Origin: Candidatus Latescibacterota bacterium
GTDB taxonomy: Bacteria; JAAXHH01; JABIQT01
NCBI GenBank assembly: GCA_018667995.1
Contig: JABIQT010000782.1
Span: forward strand, 1-8,199
Direction: 5' to 3'
DNA length: 8,199 nucleotides
Positions 1 through 8,199 of this stretch are shown here, piece by piece (within the stretch, counting starts at the first letter, position 1; the number at the start of each line of letters is the position of its first letter). The position numbers and the translations under genes were made by a program. The notes below the pieces were generated by a model. That model searched no databases, was not told where the DNA came from, and saw only the letters and a list, made by a program, of their open reading frames with translations.

Positions 1-104
1 CGGGTCGTGGAGTAACATCGGGCATACGTCATCATTCCATACCGGCACACAACCAGAACGGTATACATCTGGCGTTCTCGCCGTTCCGTCACTCCCAGCA
101 ATCC

Positions 105-1001
105 ATGAAATCTCGAACCTTACACCTTCTGCTTAAAGTCTTTCTGGTGGTCGTTTCGGCCATGCCAATCTTGTCCGCTCGCGCACAGACAACCCGCGCA
201 GCGGATTTTTTTGTAGCTGAAAACCCCACGGAACTCTCCATCCTGAACCGCTATCTCCAGAAGATCTCACGGCAGGAGGAGCGACTGTTTCAGCCATTCG
301 TACCGATGGAAGTGGTCGACTACAACGCTACCTTGAGTGACAACTTTACACGTTGTATGACTGTCCGGATCGGGGAATCATCGTTCTTTCTACTACGTGA
401 CGATGACAATGCACTGACCAATGATGATCAGGCCGGATATATCGGTGCCTTTCGAAACTGTTCGATAGTGGACGATACAATACGCGTCCTTCTGGACGAC
501 GCACATTCCATTTCCCCACGCTTCAGTGCATCAGATGAAATCAAAGTAGTCAAAGGCGAACTGGTGAAACGGCTATTCAGAAAGGACCGCTATGACTTTG
601 TCCAGATTCTTGGCAGGACAGGCGTATATGGGTGGGCCTATTTCTCTGCCCGGCGGGAGCACAAGAGCTGGGAGAAGTTTGTACGCCAACTCGCCAATGG
701 ACAAGACGCCATACCTGAACGCGTCCGGACACGTGTACAAACGCGTATTCGTGAGATCAATCAGATATTGCAGGACTTATTTGCCCAGTTAAACACCGAG
801 TCAGTAGTTGAGCGACCTGTACCGCAGTGGCAGATTGACATTACGGAAACGCTAATCGTCTGCACCATCAACGAACCTGACTACGCGGAACGATATTCCG
901 GCAGCATGCAATACATAGTGAACGACCTTGACAACGTGGTTCGCGGAACAGAATTCGCTGTCCGATACTCGGACGGTCTCATAGAAATCAAAAAGAAGTA
1001 G
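105..1001 (+). CDS. Exported protein with possible tandem SH3-like segments
   Basis: Unrecognised 298-residue protein. The N-terminus is a textbook Sec signal peptide: basic MKSR, hydrophobic core at about residues 8-23, and an Ala-Arg-Ala cleavage site at residues 25-27. The mature part has no further membrane span, so it should be periplasmic or secreted. There is no lipobox. Residues about 64-102 and 142-182 read like two small beta-barrel SH3-like repeats; the second contains GRTGVYGWAYFS (170-181), which resembles the GxxGWVyfs turn of bacterial SH3 domains. This is a pattern judgement, not a search result. Residues 195-235 are probably helical and the C-terminus ends in KKK. The start is ATG at 105, chosen because it begins the signal peptide; no Shine-Dalgarno precedes it. 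The same frame stays open to the left edge, but the residues there do not look like a leader. The gene sits 32 nt upstream of two permease-like genes and probably works with them. The gene call is strong and the function unknown. Confidence 0.85.
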   Translation: MKSRTLHLLLKVFLVVVSAMPILSARAQTTRAADFFVAENPTELSILNRYLQKISRQEERLFQPFVPMEVVDYNATLSDNFTRCMTVRIGESSFFLLRDDDNALTNDDQAGYIGAFRNCSIVDDTIRVLLDDAHSISPRFSASDEIKVVKGELVKRLFRKDRYDFVQILGRTGVYGWAYFSARREHKSWEKFVRQLANGQDAIPERVRTRVQTRIREINQILQDLFAQLNTESVVERPVPQWQIDITETLIVCTINEPDYAERYSGSMQYIVNDLDNVVRGTEFAVRYSDGLIEIKKK

Positions 1002-1018
1002 GTCTTGACACCTACTTC
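995..1018 (+). promoter_or_regulatory. 9-bp perfect hairpin over the stop codon
   Basis: GAAGTAGGT (995-1003) pairs perfectly with ACCTACTTC (1010-1018) around a 6-nt loop. The TAG stop codon of the exported-protein gene (999-1001) lies inside the left arm, and the next gene starts 15 nt after the right arm. There is no T-run, so it is a poor Rho-independent terminator. It could be an mRNA-stability or partial-attenuation element that sets the ratio of the exported protein to the permeases. Ribosomes terminating on the upstream gene would have to open it. Confidence 0.5.
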
Positions 1019-1033
1019 GTAGACAGTGAATTA

Positions 1034-2143
1034 ATGCCAAGAAAATACCTCGACCACCTGTTCAGCGTTCTTTTCATCGTGTTGCTTTTCCTGATTCTAT
1101 TCTTGATTGTTCGTTCAGGAGCTGAAGCCGAACTGGAGACCGAATACACACGGGTGGCGCCCTACCTGAACCTGGCATCCCTCGATCTATCCGAACCTCT
1201 CCACCGAACACTTTTCAGCGAAACATTGAACATTTATTATCCGGAGACGGAGGCGCGCAACGACTCGTTGGTAGAGCTCACGCGACGATATGCTACCGAT
1301 GACTTCATGGCTGTGCAGGAGATGCTGCGCTCGGGGCCGGGGTTGACGTGGTCAAAATTCTGGTCACTGAGCGGCATGTACATCTCGTTCATTATCTCCT
1401 ACTTGCTTGTCATGGTGCTCACCTACTACGGCGTCCAGACACTTGCGGTTCTACGGTTTGTTAAGGAAAAGCAGAACCTGCGGCCGTACCTCATTCGTTT
1501 CGTGGAGCACATTCAGCAACTTCCCCCAAGGGACGATAAGTCTGCTATCGCGGCATACCTTCAAACAGGAAGCAAGTATCTGGGGCTGGCCATACTGAAA
1601 GGTATAGGATACTTGATTCTGTTCTCTCCTGCCTATGTATTGGCCTACTCGTTCCGCTCCCGATTTGATACGGATACTTTCGTCTTTATGATTCTTCTTG
1701 GCGCCGTATCCAACGGACTTCTCGTCATGTACGCCCAGCGCTTTTTTACATTCCTGACATCCGAAAGTCGTAAGGGATATGTTCAGACCGCTATCGTAAA
1801 GAACCTGAATGCCGCCTATTCAGAGATACCTTGGAGCACGCTTTTTAGATTCAGAAAGCGCTTCGATGATCACATTTTGCAGCATATCTATCTGAATGCC
1901 AGATACCAGTACATTCTAACTTTGAAAGAACAGGCCTCATTTCTGATCACCGGACTTATTATCATTGAAATGGCCTTGAATATCCACGGACATATTTGCT
2001 ATGAGTTGCTGCAAAACGTACTTTTTGAGCAGTATGACGTGGTCCTGATTATTCTGCTTGGCTTGTTCCTCGTGGTGAAGGCCACAGAGGTGCTGGTCGA
2101 TCTGTGGATGGATCTGGAAGCCATGAAATACGAGAATCGATAA
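1034..2143 (+). CDS. Diverged DppB/OppB-like ABC transporter permease
   Basis: Integral inner-membrane protein of 369 residues. Predicted spans lie at about 8-27, 113-135, 183-206, 215-235, 301-318 and 334-356. A long extracytoplasmic segment (28-112) follows the first span, which is the DppB/OppB topology. The C-terminal third follows the family pattern: YVQTAIVKNL (249-258) matches the start of the EAA loop (YVRTARAKGL), IIIEMAL (309-315) matches the VVVEtvF stretch, and the tail near LVDLWMDLEAMKYENR matches NLLvDllYallDPRiR. Several family landmarks are eroded. The EAA-loop glycine is Asn257, about 16 extra residues lie between KNLN and the HILQHIYLNA part of the loop, and the usual PGlG after the conserved Glu reads HGH. 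It should form a heterodimer with the next gene product. The start ATG has only a weak ribosome site (gacagtgaatta). A repurposed permease or one with an unusual ATPase partner is possible. Family assignment is by pattern and fairly confident. Confidence 0.68.
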   Translation: MPRKYLDHLFSVLFIVLLFLILFLIVRSGAEAELETEYTRVAPYLNLASLDLSEPLHRTLFSETLNIYYPETEARNDSLVELTRRYATDDFMAVQEMLRSGPGLTWSKFWSLSGMYISFIISYLLVMVLTYYGVQTLAVLRFVKEKQNLRPYLIRFVEHIQQLPPRDDKSAIAAYLQTGSKYLGLAILKGIGYLILFSPAYVLAYSFRSRFDTDTFVFMILLGAVSNGLLVMYAQRFFTFLTSESRKGYVQTAIVKNLNAAYSEIPWSTLFRFRKRFDDHILQHIYLNARYQYILTLKEQASFLITGLIIIEMALNIHGHICYELLQNVLFEQYDVVLIILLGLFLVVKATEVLVDLWMDLEAMKYENR

Positions 2144-2174
2144 AGTGAGCCATCAAGCGCCGGGTCGGAGTATT

Positions 2175-2178
2175 GGAG
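2175..2178 (+). promoter_or_regulatory. Shine-Dalgarno deciding a GTG start
   Basis: GGAG lies 7 nt before the GTG at 2186 and 13 nt before the ATG at 2192. The spacing favours GTG as the start of the DppC-like gene, giving an extra Met-Ser at the N-terminus. A second GGAG at 2167-2170 is too far from either codon. Confidence 0.5.
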
Positions 2179-2185
2179 TCTCAGT

Positions 2186-3082
2186 GTGAGCATGAACTAC
2201 AGATCCATCTATAGATACATCGCAGGACAGCTGCCATTGCTGTACGCTCAGAAGGACAAACTGTGGATTGCTATATGGCTTGCGGCAATCTCAGCTCTAT
2301 GGCTGTGGAATCGTATCTTCCTCAATTACCCGGCTTTCACGCAGATTCAGAGTGCCTTCTTGAATACGTTCTTGATGGCGTTCCTTTGTATCATCTTCTC
2401 CCTGTTGCTGGCGTGGTCCACCGCCGTTGGTCTGCATTTCATACCCAGTACCCGCGCACCATATCTTCTTCTACCACTGACTTTTGTCCTGAATCTGATA
2501 CGTTCGGTACCACAGATTCTCGGTGTTCTGATAGGCTACATCGGGGTCACCGTACTGATTAGAGCAGATATGCTCTCAAACCGCACTACCATAATCATCC
2601 TGCTGGCATTCATTACGGCCCTCTTCGTGTTTCTCGAATTGGTAGATCTTATTAGAGAACGTATTGACCATTTCCGCAAACTGGATTTCGTCAACGCCAT
2701 GCTATGCTGTGGGATCAAAGAGTCACGCATTATTAACATTGAAATTCTGTGGAAGAACAGTCTTGCGCACGTACTCAACAAGTTGATCGCACTTTTCGGG
2801 GTAGCCATATTTCTGCAGTGCAGCGTGGACTTCATCGTATCAATTGGTCTGTCCACGGAAGTAAGCCCTGTGAACCTACCACCCACATTGGGTAGCATGC
2901 TGGCCAAAATCGACAGTAAGCAGGATATCCTGGCCATCGGTTACTCACTGACACACCCTACATACGTGGCCAATCTCCTGTTCCAGCACCTGCAGGGCAT
3001 CACTACGGCCTTCCTCATCGTTTTCACGCTATTATCCATGTACCGTATTTCAATCGGTTTCTCCCGACGTCACCGTCTATAG
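2186..3082 (+). CDS. Diverged DppC/OppC-like ABC transporter permease
   Basis: Integral membrane protein of 298 residues, the normal length for a DppC/OppC-type permease. Predicted spans lie at about 26-44, 56-84, 93-125, 134-157, 195-220 and 270-290. The EAA loop is recognisable: FVNAMLCCGIKESRIINIEI (168-187) followed by LWKNSL (188-193), matching the family's yv.AA.alGas..rii.rhilPN, with the invariant Gly at 176 and Asn191 kept and the Pro replaced by Lys. After the fifth span, LPPTLGSMLA (231-240) corresponds to the P.WGsMLaeg motif of DppC proteins. The C-terminus lacks the usual GD.LRDaLDPR ending. It starts at GTG 2186, 42 nt after the DppB-like gene, and the two should be coupled on one transcript as a permease heterodimer. 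The substrate is unknown: peptide, nickel and other ligands are all used by this family. No ATPase or binding protein is encoded nearby. Confidence 0.72.
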   Translation: MSMNYRSIYRYIAGQLPLLYAQKDKLWIAIWLAAISALWLWNRIFLNYPAFTQIQSAFLNTFLMAFLCIIFSLLLAWSTAVGLHFIPSTRAPYLLLPLTFVLNLIRSVPQILGVLIGYIGVTVLIRADMLSNRTTIIILLAFITALFVFLELVDLIRERIDHFRKLDFVNAMLCCGIKESRIINIEILWKNSLAHVLNKLIALFGVAIFLQCSVDFIVSIGLSTEVSPVNLPPTLGSMLAKIDSKQDILAIGYSLTHPTYVANLLFQHLQGITTAFLIVFTLLSMYRISIGFSRRHRL

Positions 3083-3117
3083 TCCCAACGGTCTGATTGC
3101 TATCATCTCCGCCTCAG

Positions 3118-3146
3118 GAGCCATCGTCCGAACCGTCCGATGGCTC
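3118..3146 (+). terminator. Hairpin closing the permease operon
   Basis: GAGCCATCG (3118-3126) pairs perfectly with CGATGGCTC (3138-3146) around an 11-nt loop, 35 nt after the DppC-like stop. The loop region also holds a direct repeat of CGTCCGA. The following bases (actctcccgct) contain no T-run, so it is a hairpin that could stabilise the 3' end or act as a weak terminator rather than a canonical intrinsic one. It separates the permease block from the DUF402 gene that starts at 3195. Confidence 0.5.
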
Positions 3147-3194
3147 ACTCTCCCGCTAAATAGTAACCATCGCACATAAAGAAACTGAACTGCC

Positions 3195-3791
3195 ATGCCT
3201 GAAATTCCGACTGCTGTATATCAGCACCACCTCTCGGGCGAAGTGCGCATCTTTCGTTATCCAGGGCTACCTGTAATTGATACCCCTTCTGCGGTCGTAT
3301 TTGATAGCGTTGTCTACTATCCAGTACCGACATACTGTCGCGTGTATCTCTTCCTTACACGTTGGTTGCAGGTCTTCATGACCTTCGATGACCAAATGGC
3401 GCTTCAACCCGATCCATTCGATCCATTCGGATTCGCTTTCAACTGCGACATAACGACACCATACCATCGAAGCGGAAACATCCTATACACAAGTGATGTC
3501 TGCCTTGATGTGTGCGTTCAACCCGACGGTAGAACTTATCGTATCGAGGATCAGATGGAGCTTGACGAAGCATTGGAGAACGGGCAAATCGGAAGGCAGT
3601 GGCATCAAGAATCGGTGGATGAATGCGACCATCTTGTATCGCAGATTGAGGAAGGACGATTCATCTCAAGCTTGGAAGCCGTGGTTCCGTTTCCAAAATC
3701 CTGGGAGGATTTGGGCCCTACATCTCTGGAGAAACACTCCATAAACGAAGTCAATTTCGAGTATCATCCATCATTTCCACGGTTTCCATAG
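3195..3791 (+). CDS. DUF402 family protein (FomD/Ntdp-like)
   Basis: Soluble 198-residue protein. The segment at about 79-134 carries the DUF402 core: AFNCDITTP (81-89, the w/yiNi..P strand), then SDVCLDVCVQPDGR (100-113, family form yvDldLDv.v.pdG), then a DxxE-like acidic stretch EDQMELDEALENGQI (118-132). Asp85, Asp101, Asp105, Asp119 and Glu122 are the plausible metal-binding acidic residues. Known members are divalent-metal phosphohydrolases: FomD cleaves a cytidylyl phosphonate intermediate in fosfomycin synthesis, and staphylococcal Ntdp hydrolyses nucleoside tri- and diphosphates. The N-terminal 75 residues fit the beta-barrel that precedes the core. There is no signal peptide. The ATG has no clear Shine-Dalgarno. 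The residues from about 165 onward are less conserved in appearance, and the last 41 bp overlap the convergent membrane-protein gene. No fosfomycin genes are present, so a general nucleotide phosphatase is likelier. Confidence 0.78.
   Translation: MPEIPTAVYQHHLSGEVRIFRYPGLPVIDTPSAVVFDSVVYYPVPTYCRVYLFLTRWLQVFMTFDDQMALQPDPFDPFGFAFNCDITTPYHRSGNILYTSDVCLDVCVQPDGRTYRIEDQMELDEALENGQIGRQWHQESVDECDHLVSQIEEGRFISSLEAVVPFPKSWEDLGPTSLEKHSINEVNFEYHPSFPRFP
3411..3428 (+). repeat. 9-bp tandem duplication in the DUF402 gene
   Basis: GATCCATTC occurs twice in immediate succession (3411-3419 and 3420-3428), in frame, encoding Asp-Pro-Phe-Asp-Pro-Phe at residues 73-78 just ahead of the conserved core. The two copies are identical at the DNA level, which suggests a fairly recent slippage duplication. 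Confidence 0.7.
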
Positions 3792-4806
3792 TTGGCACAT
3801 TGCCACGGGGTTTCTGTCGGATATATCGAATGAGTATCAGTCCTCCAACGAGAACCGAGAAATACATGATCGAGGTTCGCCAGAGAAGTGTATAAGCAGG
3901 CAGCAATGAGGACGGAATGAGAGACTGCATCAACACGGCGGTACCCACCTCGGCGCCCACACTTCCGCCCGGAGTGGGCAGGAAGTAGAGCAGGATATGA
4001 AGAAACAACTGTATAATCATTAACTGGGTCAGCGAAGTCTCAATACCCAGAGCACGCGCTGCCAGATAAGCCGCGAAGTACTTATTGGCGAAGACTGCGA
4101 CGGTCACAGGTATAGACAGTACAAACCGCATCTTGTACTTACGAAAGAGTAACTGTACAGTGGCGCTGCCATCTTTCAAGTGCAGCACCAGCTGTGCGGC
4201 GAGACGACCAAGCCTCTTCCTCGACTGTGCCCAGTCTACAACGCCCTGCAGCCAGACGATGACCTTTTGCGGAAATAGCAGCACAAGGAAACCACCCGTT
4301 GCCAGCCCTCCAAACAGCAGTGCCGCGAGCGCAAACGGAGCGGAACCACCCATATCCGGAAGCCGACCGCTCGCATCAAGTCCCCATAGCCCGATACATG
4401 CCAGAGCGTAGAAAACAAGGGTGGACAGGAACGTAAGAAACAGCACGCTGACGGCCTGCCCCGCGTTGGCGCCTTCCTTTACGAGCACATAAACCTGGGC
4501 AATACCGCCGCCGGTCTGCGACGGTGTAGCGGCTCCCATGAAACTGCCTACGGCACAGTTCTTCACGCAGGCAAAGTATGATATGTCGGGGCAAGCGGCA
4601 TGCGTGAACATCCACATACGCAGTCCAGCGATGGCCCAGTCCGCTACTGGTACAGCGAACACACACAGCAGCAGATAGGGCAGCTCCAGACGGTCTACTA
4701 CGGCAGCAATCGGTGCGGTTTCGGTCGACAGAAAAAAGACCAGAATAAAGCCGATGATGCTCAGTAAGGCAAACAGACTCACACCGAGTCTGAAGTTGAC
4801 GTTCAT
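3751..4806 (-). CDS. LPG-synthase TM-region / flippase-like membrane protein
   Basis: Polytopic inner-membrane protein of 351 residues with about eight hydrophobic spans, matching the lysylphosphatidylglycerol synthase transmembrane-region family (UPF0104, also called flippase-like). Diagnostic motifs are GAATPSQTGGGIAQVYVLVK (91-110), the family's P.r.GGe..r...l, and LPTPGGSVGAE (276-286), the P.PGG.G..E motif. WR at 309-310 is also typical. Members lack the C-terminal aminoacyl-transferase domain of MprF, and so does this one, which ends in about 20 polar residues. The family is linked to moving or modifying lipids, glycolipids and polyprenyl carriers; the substrate here cannot be told. The start is ATG at 4806; the upstream bases (cggggctaaacagcg) give no strong Shine-Dalgarno. 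It is a single gene on its strand, with nothing co-directional close by, and its 3' end overlaps the DUF402 gene tail to tail. Confidence 0.88.
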   Translation of the reverse strand: MNVNFRLGVSLFALLSIIGFILVFFLSTETAPIAAVVDRLELPYLLLCVFAVPVADWAIAGLRMWMFTHAACPDISYFACVKNCAVGSFMGAATPSQTGGGIAQVYVLVKEGANAGQAVSVLFLTFLSTLVFYALACIGLWGLDASGRLPDMGGSAPFALAALLFGGLATGGFLVLLFPQKVIVWLQGVVDWAQSRKRLGRLAAQLVLHLKDGSATVQLLFRKYKMRFVLSIPVTVAVFANKYFAAYLAARALGIETSLTQLMIIQLFLHILLYFLPTPGGSVGAEVGTAVLMQSLIPSSLLPAYTLLWRTSIMYFSVLVGGLILIRYIRQKPRGNVPTMETVEMMDDTRN

Positions 4807-5271
4807 CGCTGTTTAGCCCCGCGGGTATTGTTGCTGGATTCAGGGGTCGTGCTTCGCATAGATGGTCACAAAGTCAGTGATTGGACCTATGACGTCAAGA
4901 TTTTAAACCGATGGTCTGTGAGGGTGGCTATGATAGTCGAAACAGTGGTCAATTGCTACTGCGTGATTGCCTACCTCGAACCCCGCTTATATATGTCTGA
5001 ACTCCATGCCCGATCGGCTGATTAGTGCAGGCAGAGATGGTGAAGCAATCTACCCCGCATCGGGTTCAACGGGATCTACATCATCCGAACACGCAGGATT
5101 CCTGAATCGTCATGGGCGGACGCTTTTTCGGCGTACCCGAAACTTTCTCTTGGCTCAATCTTCTATTAACTGAGAGGGGAATCCAAAGGGGCGATTATGT
5201 AACACTTGTTGCGGAGGCGCCGTAAGACGCAAGAACGTTAAGGTACTTGGACTAACAGATAATGGAGATAA

Positions 5272-5296
5272 ACGCGTGCCAGGGAGGTTCACGCGT
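5272..5296. repeat. Perfect 7-bp inverted repeat
   Basis: ACGCGTG (5272-5278) and CACGCGT (5290-5296) form a perfect stem around an 11-nt loop (ccagggaggtt). Each arm contains the palindrome ACGCGT, so the same motif also reads as a direct repeat 19 nt apart. It could be an RNA hairpin or a pair of operator half-sites. It lies in the gene-free stretch. Confidence 0.4.
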
Positions 5297-5549
5297 GGCG
5301 ATAGATCTCGGAAAAAATCGGTTTCTCCCGCAGGGAACCTGTATTTCGTCAGTCGCCAGAAAGAACCAGCTCGAACTCTCTCGTCTTTTATCCAACGGGC
5401 AATCGGCGGATACGCCGTATCATTCTGGGAAACAGGATCGGGTGGCACATCTGCTTACCGGGGGGAATCCATATGTTTTTTGTACCCGCGTGTGCGTACA
5501 TCCTCAGCTCCCCACCATTTGATGTTATTTAGAGTTACTTGAAGGAGTT

Positions 5550-5582
5550 CGCAGCCATCAGGTACCCGCAAGAGATGGCGCG
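5550..5582 (-). terminator. Hairpin after the NrtR-like gene
   Basis: GCCATC (5554-5559) pairs with GATGGC (5574-5579). The stem extends outward through CGC (5550-5552) with GCG (5580-5582) across a single bulged A at 5553, giving nine pairs. It lies 8 nt downstream of the NrtR-like stop codon on the minus strand. The following minus-strand bases are A/T-rich but lack a T-run, so termination would be weak or Rho-assisted. It is the best candidate for the end of the regulatory operon. Confidence 0.4.
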
Positions 5583-5590
5583 TAAGTGTC

Positions 5591-6253
5591 TCATTTGAAA
5601 AGAGGTATGATCCGCATCGCCCGATCTTTAGCCCGGTAAAGCATGGCGGGGCGAGCACGTTCCCCAGTCCGGCGTAGCTCGGTTGGCTCAAGAATATCAA
5701 GCGAGAGCAACTTCTTGCGGAAATTTCGTTTATCGAGACTGCCTTGGAGGCAGTATTCATACACGGATTGCAGCTCGGTGAGGGTGAATTCCAGAGGTAG
5801 CAGCAATACTGCTATGGTGGTGTAGTTCAATTTGGCCCGGATACGATCCACGCACAATTCTATGATTCCTTTGTGATCGAAGGCCAAGCTAGGCAGGTCA
5901 TCCACATCACACCAGAAGGCCTGGCCGTATTTCCTGCTCGTTTGAAAGGTACTTCCGTCTCTATCGGGCAACGCCATATAGGCGGTAGAAATCGACCGTT
6001 GCCGCGGATCCCTATCGAGTCCAGAAAATGTGAAGACTTGCTCGAAATAGGCGCTATTGTGGCCGGTAGCCTCGCGATAGGCTCTCTCTGACGCCGCCGG
6101 GAGGTCTTCTTTCTCGCGTACTAACGTGCCAGGCAGTGCCATAGATCCTACATACGGATCTATGATAAGCTCTACGAGATAGACTTGGAGTTTGTGGCCC
6201 TGGAATCGGAATATACCGATGTCGGTAGCCGCAAAGGGGTTCTGTGGTTCCAT
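5591..6253 (-). CDS. NrtR-type Nudix-related transcriptional regulator
   Basis: Protein of 220 residues with the two-domain NrtR layout: an N-terminal Nudix-fold ligand sensor (about 8-145) and a C-terminal winged helix (about 150-212). The N-domain shows the Nudix-box region from Gly42, with Glu49 and RAYREATG (57-64), then QVFTFSGLDRDPRQRSIST (72-90), the NrtR pattern q.yTFg..dRDPR.R.iS. The C-domain carries FTLTELQSVYEYCLQG (156-171), DKRNFRKKLL (174-183) and RPAMLYR (201-207), all NrtR hallmarks. The catalytic motif REUXEE reads RAYREA, so two of three glutamates are Ala (58 and 62); hydrolase activity is probably lost. NrtR proteins bind ADP-ribose or related ligands and repress NAD metabolism genes; relatives control sugar catabolism, so the target is open. 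The start is taken as ATG at 6253; a TTG at 6268 would add five residues. It follows the response regulator by 74 nt. Confidence 0.88.
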   Translation of the reverse strand: MEPQNPFAATDIGIFRFQGHKLQVYLVELIIDPYVGSMALPGTLVREKEDLPAASERAYREATGHNSAYFEQVFTFSGLDRDPRQRSISTAYMALPDRDGSTFQTSRKYGQAFWCDVDDLPSLAFDHKGIIELCVDRIRAKLNYTTIAVLLLPLEFTLTELQSVYEYCLQGSLDKRNFRKKLLSLDILEPTELRRTGERARPAMLYRAKDRAMRIIPLFK

Positions 6254-6327
6254 GGGACCAGTGCCCAATCTGTGCGTTTCCGGGTTGTCGAATCGGACAC
6301 GATGTGGGCCCCGATTTGAATGGGTAC

Positions 6328-7473
6328 TTACGACGTCTGTAATTCCGACTTACCACCATAATGGACGGTGATCAGGGTGCGATCGTCCACGGGAGGACAT
6401 CCACGGGCAAATGAATCTGCACCGGAAAGGATGGCCGATAGTAGTTCAGGTCCTCCGGACGGGATATCTTCAATGATCTTGTGTATCCGCTCAGATTGAA
6501 ACAACTCCCCCTCGCATTCAGTCTCGGGAATCCCATCTGTATACAGTAATAACCGTGTATTTGAGCGCCACGCCACCGTTTCGACCTCCCACGTCATGAT
6601 TGGCAGGGCAGGAGATATCAGAGGACCCGTTGAATCAAGGGACTGCGGCGCCTCCCCGGCATTGGCGAGCGTACCGCCAAAGTGGCCGGCGTTTATGTAG
6701 GTCATCGTGCCGTCAGAAATAGAAATTGAAGCGCACAACATGGTGATGAATCGATCGGACCGAAATGGCCGTATTCCTTCCTCAACTCTCTTCACCACTG
6801 CAGACGGATGATATCCTTCCTCAAGAGAGGCATGAAAAGCCGACTTCACGATCCCCGTCAACATAGCAGCAGATGCTCCGTGTCCTGCAACGTCCGCGAT
6901 GACTACCGACACGGTGTCGGGCGAGGCCGATGCGTAGTCGTACAGATCACCGCCCAGTTCCTCGCAGGGCAGGTAGGCGGCATTGATGTCAAATCCTTCC
7001 AGACTGGCCTCACGCGCCGGTAGCATGGTCATCTGGAACGCTCGCGCCTCGGCGAGCTGCCCTTCCAGGTGTCGGACATGGCGACGATTGGCATCCTCCA
7101 GAGTTCTCAGCTCAAGACAGCGCTGTACCAAGGTCCGAAGTACCTCTCTGTCAAAAGGCTTTGTAATGTAATAGAATGCCTTTTCCCTGATGGCCCGAAT
7201 CAGTTGATCGTCGATGTCATAGGCGCTACCGGTCATAAGTATGACCTGCACGTCCTGATCCAACTGCTTCAGCATATTCATCAATTGAAATCCGTCCATC
7301 CCCGCCATTCTTACATCAATGACAGCCACATGTGGCTTGAAGTCTGGTGCGAGGACAATGGCGGTTTCAGGTGAGGGCACAGCAAGTACTTCGTGGTCGC
7401 CACCGAGAATCCGCTCGACCGTTCGTAACATCGGCGCTTCATCATCAACGATGAGAATGCGATACTCGGTCAT
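6328..7473 (-). CDS. Response regulator with PP2C/SpoIIE-type phosphatase output
   Basis: Cytoplasmic 381-residue protein. The receiver domain (about 4-122) has the acidic pair Asp10-Asp11, phospho-acceptor Asp53 in VIDVRM, Thr81 in LMTGS and Lys105 in YITKPF, all intact. A probable coiled-coil linker (about 120-150) leads to a PP2C/SpoIIE phosphatase domain (about 158-374) with the metal-binding motifs LGGDLYD (173-179), ADVAGHG (193-199), YTDG (311-314) and DDRT (363-366). All key acidic residues are present, so it should be an active Ser/Thr phosphatase whose activity is set by phosphorylation of Asp53. The family (RsbU/RsbP-like, HsbR/RssB-like hybrids) commonly dephosphorylates STAS anti-anti-sigma factors in partner switching, but no STAS or RsbW-like gene is in the window. 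A Shine-Dalgarno AGGAG at 7482-7486 lies 8 nt before the ATG. The start overlaps the stop of the kinase gene by ATGA, so the two are coupled. Confidence 0.93.
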   Translation of the reverse strand: MTEYRILIVDDEAPMLRTVERILGGDHEVLAVPSPETAIVLAPDFKPHVAVIDVRMAGMDGFQLMNMLKQLDQDVQVILMTGSAYDIDDQLIRAIREKAFYYITKPFDREVLRTLVQRCLELRTLEDANRRHVRHLEGQLAEARAFQMTMLPAREASLEGFDINAAYLPCEELGGDLYDYASASPDTVSVVIADVAGHGASAAMLTGIVKSAFHASLEEGYHPSAVVKRVEEGIRPFRSDRFITMLCASISISDGTMTYINAGHFGGTLANAGEAPQSLDSTGPLISPALPIMTWEVETVAWRSNTRLLLYTDGIPETECEGELFQSERIHKIIEDIPSGGPELLSAILSGADSFARGCPPVDDRTLITVHYGGKSELQTS

Positions 7474-8199
7474 TCTGATGACTCCTGATCAGTATCACTT
7501 AGAATCGGCAGTGAGAGCAGAATCTTTGTCCCGGCTCCCGGTACGCTATCGAATCGCATGGTGCCGTTTATTTCCCAGAGTACAGATCTGCAGATAGAAA
7601 GGCCGAGCCCGTTGCCATCCTCTTTGGTCGTGAAAAACGGCTCCGATAGCCTTTTCATATGCGCCTCCGGTATGCCTTCACCATCATCCTGCACGGCCAT
7701 CTTCACCGCTGTCTCTTCCACACTTGCAAAAATCGTCAGCGTGCCCCCGCCAGGCATAGCATCGCGAGCATTGGTGAAGAGGTTCAGGAATAGCTGGGTA
7801 ATATCGCCCTGACTTCCACGAATAGAGGGTAGCTCTGCGGGTAACTGCAACAACACTTTGATTTTATGGCGCTTCAAACTGTCCTCCAGGACAGTCAATG
7901 CACTATCGACTGCCCGGCGGAGATTGCCGTGTCCGATCCCCCGTTTCGACCCGCGCGCTATGGTTAGCATACTGCCGAAGATCCTGCGACAAGTCTGCAA
8001 GGATTGCTCAATTACATCGAGATCCTCACGAAGCGTCTCCATAACAATTCGGCCGTTGGCGGAATCATCCCTCAACTGCTGCACCAATGGAAGAACGGCG
8101 CCGAGAGCATTGTTCATATCATGGGTTATACCACGGGTAAGGTTTGCCAGAGCATGTTTACGTTCGGACTGCACCACGCGTTCCTGCAGATCCTCCGTA
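7470..8199 (-). CDS. Sensor histidine kinase, C-terminal part (5' end off-window)
   Basis: C-terminal 242 residues of a two-component histidine kinase. The frame runs open through the right edge, with the visible upstream codons reading TEDLQERVVQSERKHAL, a coiled-coil typical of the region before the dimerisation helix. The GTG at 8177 is therefore internal. GITHDMNNAL carries the phospho-acceptor His (codon 8121-8123) in a HisKA H-box. The HATPase domain shows the N-box LFLNLFTNARDA, the G1 box DDGEGIP and the G2 box GNGLGLSICRSV, so the catalytic core is complete. The short tail SDTDQESSE ends at TGA 7470-7472, which overlaps the regulator ATG. The sensing domain lies outside the window, so the signal is unknown. 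It should phosphorylate Asp53 of the phosphatase-output regulator encoded next to it. It resembles NtrB/AtoS-like soluble-core kinases; membrane spans cannot be judged. Confidence 0.93.
   Translation of the reverse strand, partial: TEDLQERVVQSERKHALANLTRGITHDMNNALGAVLPLVQQLRDDSANGRIVMETLREDLDVIEQSLQTCRRIFGSMLTIARGSKRGIGHGNLRRAVDSALTVLEDSLKRHKIKVLLQLPAELPSIRGSQGDITQLFLNLFTNARDAMPGGGTLTIFASVEETAVKMAVQDDGEGIPEAHMKRLSEPFFTTKEDGNGLGLSICRSVLWEINGTMRFDSVPGAGTKILLSLPILSDTDQESSE
7482..7486 (-). promoter_or_regulatory. Shine-Dalgarno of the phosphatase regulator
   Basis: On the minus strand AGGAG precedes the ATG at 7473 by 8 nt, within the 3' end of the kinase reading frame. Together with the ATGA overlap it supports both the chosen start and tight translational coupling of kinase and regulator. 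Confidence 0.55.

Follow-up and report, generated by a model that had tools for sequence, protein, structure and literature searches.

The described systems closest to the locus analysed here are peptide-class ABC importers. DppABCDF and OppABCDF share with it a heterodimer of a DppB-like and a DppC-like permease, a family-5 solute-binding protein (SBP) and two nucleotide-binding domains, while YejABEF, a microcin C and peptide importer, and YejBEF-YepA share an SBP, a permease pair and a fused tandem ATPase. The combination of an SBP with a DppB/DppC-type pair is a hallmark of importers, and SH3b domains, which one domain encoded at the locus resembles, are targeting domains of murein hydrolases such as lysostaphin and NlpC/P60-type endopeptidases. 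That a peptide ABC importer with a dedicated SBP can serve murein-peptide import is documented for YejBEF-YepA of Agrobacterium (PMC9790009). The locus described below is part of a variant of these peptide importers conserved in Bacteroidetes-related bacteria, a description of which was not found in a short literature search that left most subscription journals outside its coverage; its three genes A, B and C are very probably the middle of a six-gene, ATP-driven type I ABC importer of the peptide (Dpp/Opp/Yej) class.

The window, i.e. the whole stretch of DNA analysed, is the complete contig C490 of genome G000 (positions 1-8199, 8199 bases), both ends of which are assembly edges; the genome is 85% complete and distributed over 1165 contigs. 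The three co-directional genes that a first-pass annotation had delineated were recovered at the same positions, on the plus strand, in our ORF check, with the following features:

105-1001, plus strand: gene A, exported protein of 298 aa (ORF, cassette homologues, AlphaFold model, structural matches)
105-188, plus strand: signal peptide-like segment of A, residues 1-28, ending ...SARA/QTT (hydrophobic segment 4-27, helix 2-26 in the model)
459-692, plus strand: SH3b-like domain of A, residues ~119-196 (VIA-align structural matches)
1034-2143, plus strand: gene B, diverged DppB-type ABC permease of 369 aa (hhalign, structural matches)
1763-1909, plus strand: coupling (EAA) region of B, ESRKGYVQTAIVKNL...HIYLNARYQ, with ~20 extra loop residues (26 relatives, DppB alignment)
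2186-3082, plus strand: gene C, diverged DppC-type ABC permease of 298 aa (hhalign, Opp4C, PF00528 in some relatives)
2681-2770, plus strand: coupling (EAA) region of C, LDFVNAMLCCGIKESRIINIEILWKNSLAH (invariant residues in 26 relatives, DppC alignment)

The remainder of the contig encodes, immediately 3' of C, a protein with a DUF402 match below cut-off (3195-3791, plus strand) and, on the minus strand, a flippase-like LPG_synthase_TM membrane protein (3751-4806), an NrtR-type transcription regulator with a NUDIX domain and an NrtR winged helix (5591-6268), and a fusion of a response regulator with a SpoIIE phosphatase domain (6328-8198), which adjoins a histidine kinase truncated at the contig end. 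Neither an ATPase nor an SBP was found by Pfam search in these 8.2 kb and, since the window is a complete contig, the missing upstream genes are an assembly-edge effect.

Genome G000 carries many ordinary ABC permeases, with 39 PF00528 matches, none of which lies on C490. As single sequences, B and C of the window gave no match to PF00528, whose gathering cut-off was not reached; B had no convincing match in Pfam at large and none to the NCBIfam Opp/Dpp permease equivalogs, and C matched NCBIfam Opp4C with an E-value of 2e-4 and 20.7 bits, far under the equivalog cut-off of 350. Among their relatives, PF00528 was matched at E <= 0.1 by 7 of 26 B sequences (best 4e-5) and 5 of 26 C sequences (best 1e-5). 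Profile-profile comparison with hhalign, based on 26 sequences for each protein, places B with the DppB set (E 2e-6, against 0.16 for the DppC set) and C with the DppC set (E 7e-6, its best, against 7e-4 for the DppB set). B and C are, as the first-pass annotation had described them, a diverged pair of one DppB-type and one DppC-type permease; the profile searches that it had suggested returned nothing from PF00528 for the single sequences and this placement at the profile level.

The structure of B agrees with this assignment. Although its AlphaFold model is of middling confidence (pLDDT 70), the top 8 structural matches are all OppB/DppB subunits of Opp/Dpp complexes, with 217-249 residues aligned at an rmsd of 5-7 Å and Z values of 13.0-9.8, near the range where the structural tool issues a warning for helical proteins; the subsequent matches are to other type I ABC permeases, the fold that the first-pass annotation had expected. 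Foldseek with B alone returned nothing below E 0.3. In the coupling region of B, many residues are invariant or near-invariant over 26 relatives, and the region aligns to the EAA loop of DppB, which shows a gap at the extra residues of B. In that of C, aligned by hhalign to the EAA loop of DppC, D167, A171, G176, I187, N191 and H195 are invariant over 26 relatives. What fails with PF00528 is a sequence cut-off; the tests of fold and profile instead indicate peptide-class permeases.

The protein encoded by A carries a single hydrophobic segment, at its N-terminus (residues 4-27), and none elsewhere, in line with its earlier description as exported; in its AlphaFold model (pLDDT 85), residues 2-26 form a helix, and cleavage would be expected after SARA (SARA/QTT). 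This signal-type helix is followed by a β-rich part, an SH3b-like domain and a C-terminal α/β domain of common arrangement, and cassette homologues of A are 23-38% identical to it. Its SH3-like character, also noted at first pass, finds support in residues ~119-196, which VIA-align superposes over 62-70 residues onto 2evr, 3npf, 5nmy (lysostaphin) and 5bnd (TagH) with Z 6.5-8.2, the best being 2evr (Z 8.2 over 67 residues) and several SH3b domains of murein hydrolases lying at Z 6.5-6.9. The proteins matched by this domain include cell-wall endopeptidases, among them a γ-D-glutamyl-L-diamino acid endopeptidase, lysostaphin and endolysins. As a single sequence, A has no convincing match in Pfam or NCBIfam, SH3b included, and in Foldseek its best E-value was 1e-3, with nothing under 0.001 for A alone. 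A resembles the SH3b murein hydrolases in its SH3b-like domain and differs from them in that no hydrolase domain was found in it with Pfam.

The statement that no ATPase or SBP accompanies these genes holds for the window and fails for the genome, which encodes both elsewhere. The SBP gene lies on contig C1018 (1-1695, minus strand), truncated by the contig edge; it is adjoined by a lipoprotein gene, with a divergent sulfatase-like gene beyond. Because this layout equals that upstream of A in genome G001, which has the six genes in one uninterrupted stretch, C1018 probably adjoins the window on the left, and its lipoprotein and SBP genes most likely join the window's start. No exact sequence overlap was found between the ends of C1018 and C490, and about 15 SBP residues and an intergenic piece are absent between them. 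Judged by sequence, the cassette SBP is a family-5 solute-binding protein: the G000 copy matches PF00496 with 46.3 bits (cut-off 32.4), and 7 of 12 relatives do so at E <= 0.01. By hhalign, it has no match to two canonical SBPs of G000 (E 0.12). Its single N-terminal hydrophobic segment (residues 1-29) would form an uncleaved helix holding the protein in the inner membrane. With this family-5 protein conserved just 5' of A, the first-pass suggestion that the exported protein replaces the binding protein finds no support.

The dedicated ATPase of G000 stands alone on contig C856 (10574-12142), apart from the other cassette genes, and is 68% identical to the G001 ATPase encoded next to C. Among the ABC proteins of G000 it stands well apart in the homology search, with an E-value of 1e-154 against 4e-15 for the next-best. 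Both halves of the tandem ATPase retain the full motif set (Walker A, signature, Walker B, switch-H), in the G000 copy as well, and on these motifs the C856 protein qualifies as two putatively competent nucleotide-binding domains dedicated to B and C. The ATPase of G014 is likewise detached from C. In the ATPase tree, the detached G000 and G014 sequences form a group with the G001 sequence (support 100/99), and in the C tree the same three genomes group together (99/97); as the two trees agree, the detached ATPase was most likely inherited together with the permeases. An ABC system assembled from distant ATPases, one of the options raised at first pass, therefore fits G000, with its dedicated ATPase on a separate contig; of an ordinary peptide importer with ATPase and SBP directly upstream, which had been named as the outcome that would overturn the proposal, the SBP is most likely in that place and the ATPase is not. 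In G014, the reading frame of C continues into that of a PorV-like outer membrane protein (L012:7956-9800; PF19572 at E 5e-4, below cut-off) at the site of the ATPase gene in G001, an arrangement that may reflect a fusion or an assembly error.

Homologues of C with 49-64% identity occur in metagenome-assembled genomes (MAGs) labelled Zixiibacteriota, Caldithrix, Fibrobacter, Chitinispirillaceae and Bacteroidetes. The cassette around them has a fixed order, which starts with a ~790-aa lipoprotein and an SBP of ~577 aa anchored in the membrane by its N-terminus, continues with A, B and C, and ends with a tandem ABC ATPase (~500 aa). The complete order is found in G001, in L014 and L016 (Fibrobacter MAGs) and in L017 (a Bacteroidetes MAG), and the part from SBP to ATPase in L013, a Caldithrix MAG. 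In wider searches, a few loci of which repeat those named, the ATPase lies less than 1.5 kb from C in 42 of 45 loci, the three exceptions having it ~4 kb downstream (L100) or on another contig (G213, G216). The six genes form one cluster in 15 of 20 extended loci, in one case with a 3-kb insert, and almost every long locus retains an SBP next to A-B-C. Clustering of the ORFs from 31 contigs returned exactly six common families, those of the cassette, the next being a histidine kinase family (8 of 31), and A and the lipoprotein are kept as firmly as the transporter genes. Two of the six have no match to any Pfam family, and PDB sequence searches with profiles of A, B, C, the SBP and the lipoprotein gave no significant match. 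Inserts are tolerated, as shown by SBP-A spacings of ~6 and ~3 kb in L097 and L098; in L107 (G203), C is present and the ATPase matches in two pieces, with B and A not found next to these.

The association extends to whole genomes. In the class of the window, C, the SBP and the dedicated ATPase occur in the same 3 of 16 genomes. Among 40 genomes from the phylum of G016, a full C is found in 27, all 27 of which have the ATPase, and the 13 others comprise 3 with the ATPase only and 10 with neither (Fisher p 3e-7, a guide value only, as the genomes are related and not independent). Strong C matches occur in 19 of 167 genomes in the phylum of G017 and in 29 of 391 sampled genomes in the class of G020. 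The neighbourhood comparison proposed at first pass reveals an ATPase and an SBP conserved beside A-B-C across relatives.

In the importer that we propose, B and C would form the heterodimeric channel, powered by the tandem-domain ATPase, a single chain that contains both nucleotide-binding domains in complete form, and the family-5 SBP, anchored in the inner membrane by its N-terminal helix, would bind a peptide-like solute on the periplasmic side and deliver it to B/C. A, with its SH3b-like domain, and the ~790-aa lipoprotein are constant additional envelope components, which probably dock the complex to peptidoglycan and outer membrane or supply it with substrate. Transport would be inward, and peptides or murein peptides are the most likely substrate. 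Such a system differs from DppABCDF/OppABCDF in its membrane-anchored SBP, in permeases that escape PF00528 as single sequences, in the union of both ATPase domains in one chain with no oligo_HPY match, and in two extra conserved envelope genes. From YejABEF and YejBEF-YepA it differs in having A and the lipoprotein; NCBIfam YejF matches the cassette ATPase across both halves, with 109 bits for that of L017, where the equivalog cut-off of 834 is not reached. G000 also has, on C727, a separate, ordinary-looking permease pair that we read as resembling YejB/YejE.

Compatible with this reading, the cassette could be an ordinary nutrient importer for oligopeptides, with A and the lipoprotein as minor accessories unconnected to peptidoglycan. 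The closeness of B and C to DppB/DppC, the family-5 SBP and an ATPase that matches NikD, NikE, YejF and dipeptide-type models, among others, make this quite possible, if somewhat short of an even chance, since the two envelope genes are retained as firmly as those of the transporter and A has an SH3b-like domain typical of murein hydrolases. The same domain, through its matches to the γ-D-glutamyl-L-diamino acid endopeptidase and lysostaphin, leads to a narrower proposal for the substrate, which we hold tentatively: A would bind peptidoglycan via SH3b and the SBP would capture released muropeptides, in a murein-peptide recycling like that of YejBEF-YepA, the precedent for a Yej-type importer with a dedicated SBP (PMC9790009). 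In a search of 40 genomes for AmpG (TIGR00901), aimed at a possible replacement of AmpG by the cassette, many cassette carriers had weak AmpG-like matches, below cut-off. Against the recycling proposal, SH3-type domains also bind other ligands.

Diverged permeases, an anchored SBP, a large lipoprotein and an exported SH3b-like protein make an unusual set, which might instead suggest an envelope remodelling machine or an exporter, where the permease pair moves force or lipids and imports no solute. We consider this very unlikely, given the SBP next to A-B-C in almost every long locus and the conservation of both ATPase sites and of the coupling regions in B and C; a role other than import, as entertained at first pass, is unsupported because the SBP, the DppB/DppC pair and a tandem ATPase with intact motifs are all retained. 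An orphan permease pair with no ATPase or SBP at all, as the window by itself would suggest, is contradicted by the SBP at the edge of C1018 and the dedicated ATPase on C856, and its probability is close to nil.

Returning to the six-gene peptide-class importer, the apparent absence of its ATPase and SBP is the product of a single-contig view and of a real relocation of the ATPase gene. A broader generalization, which we regard as doubtful, would make the cassette a distinct, hitherto undescribed class of trans-envelope ABC importers of the FCB group, in which an outer-membrane lipoprotein, an SH3b tether to peptidoglycan and a membrane-anchored SBP pass murein peptides to a tandem-ATPase-driven DppB/DppC pair, and whose ATPase gene can drift from the operon. 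With permeases mostly under the Pfam cut-off, two of six genes outside any Pfam family and no paper found, automatic annotation would easily overlook that these genes form a single transporter. The cassette is nonetheless kept as a unit across several phyla, and the window illustrates how a complete transporter can pass for an orphan permease pair when a contig edge interrupts it and its ATPase gene has been relocated.
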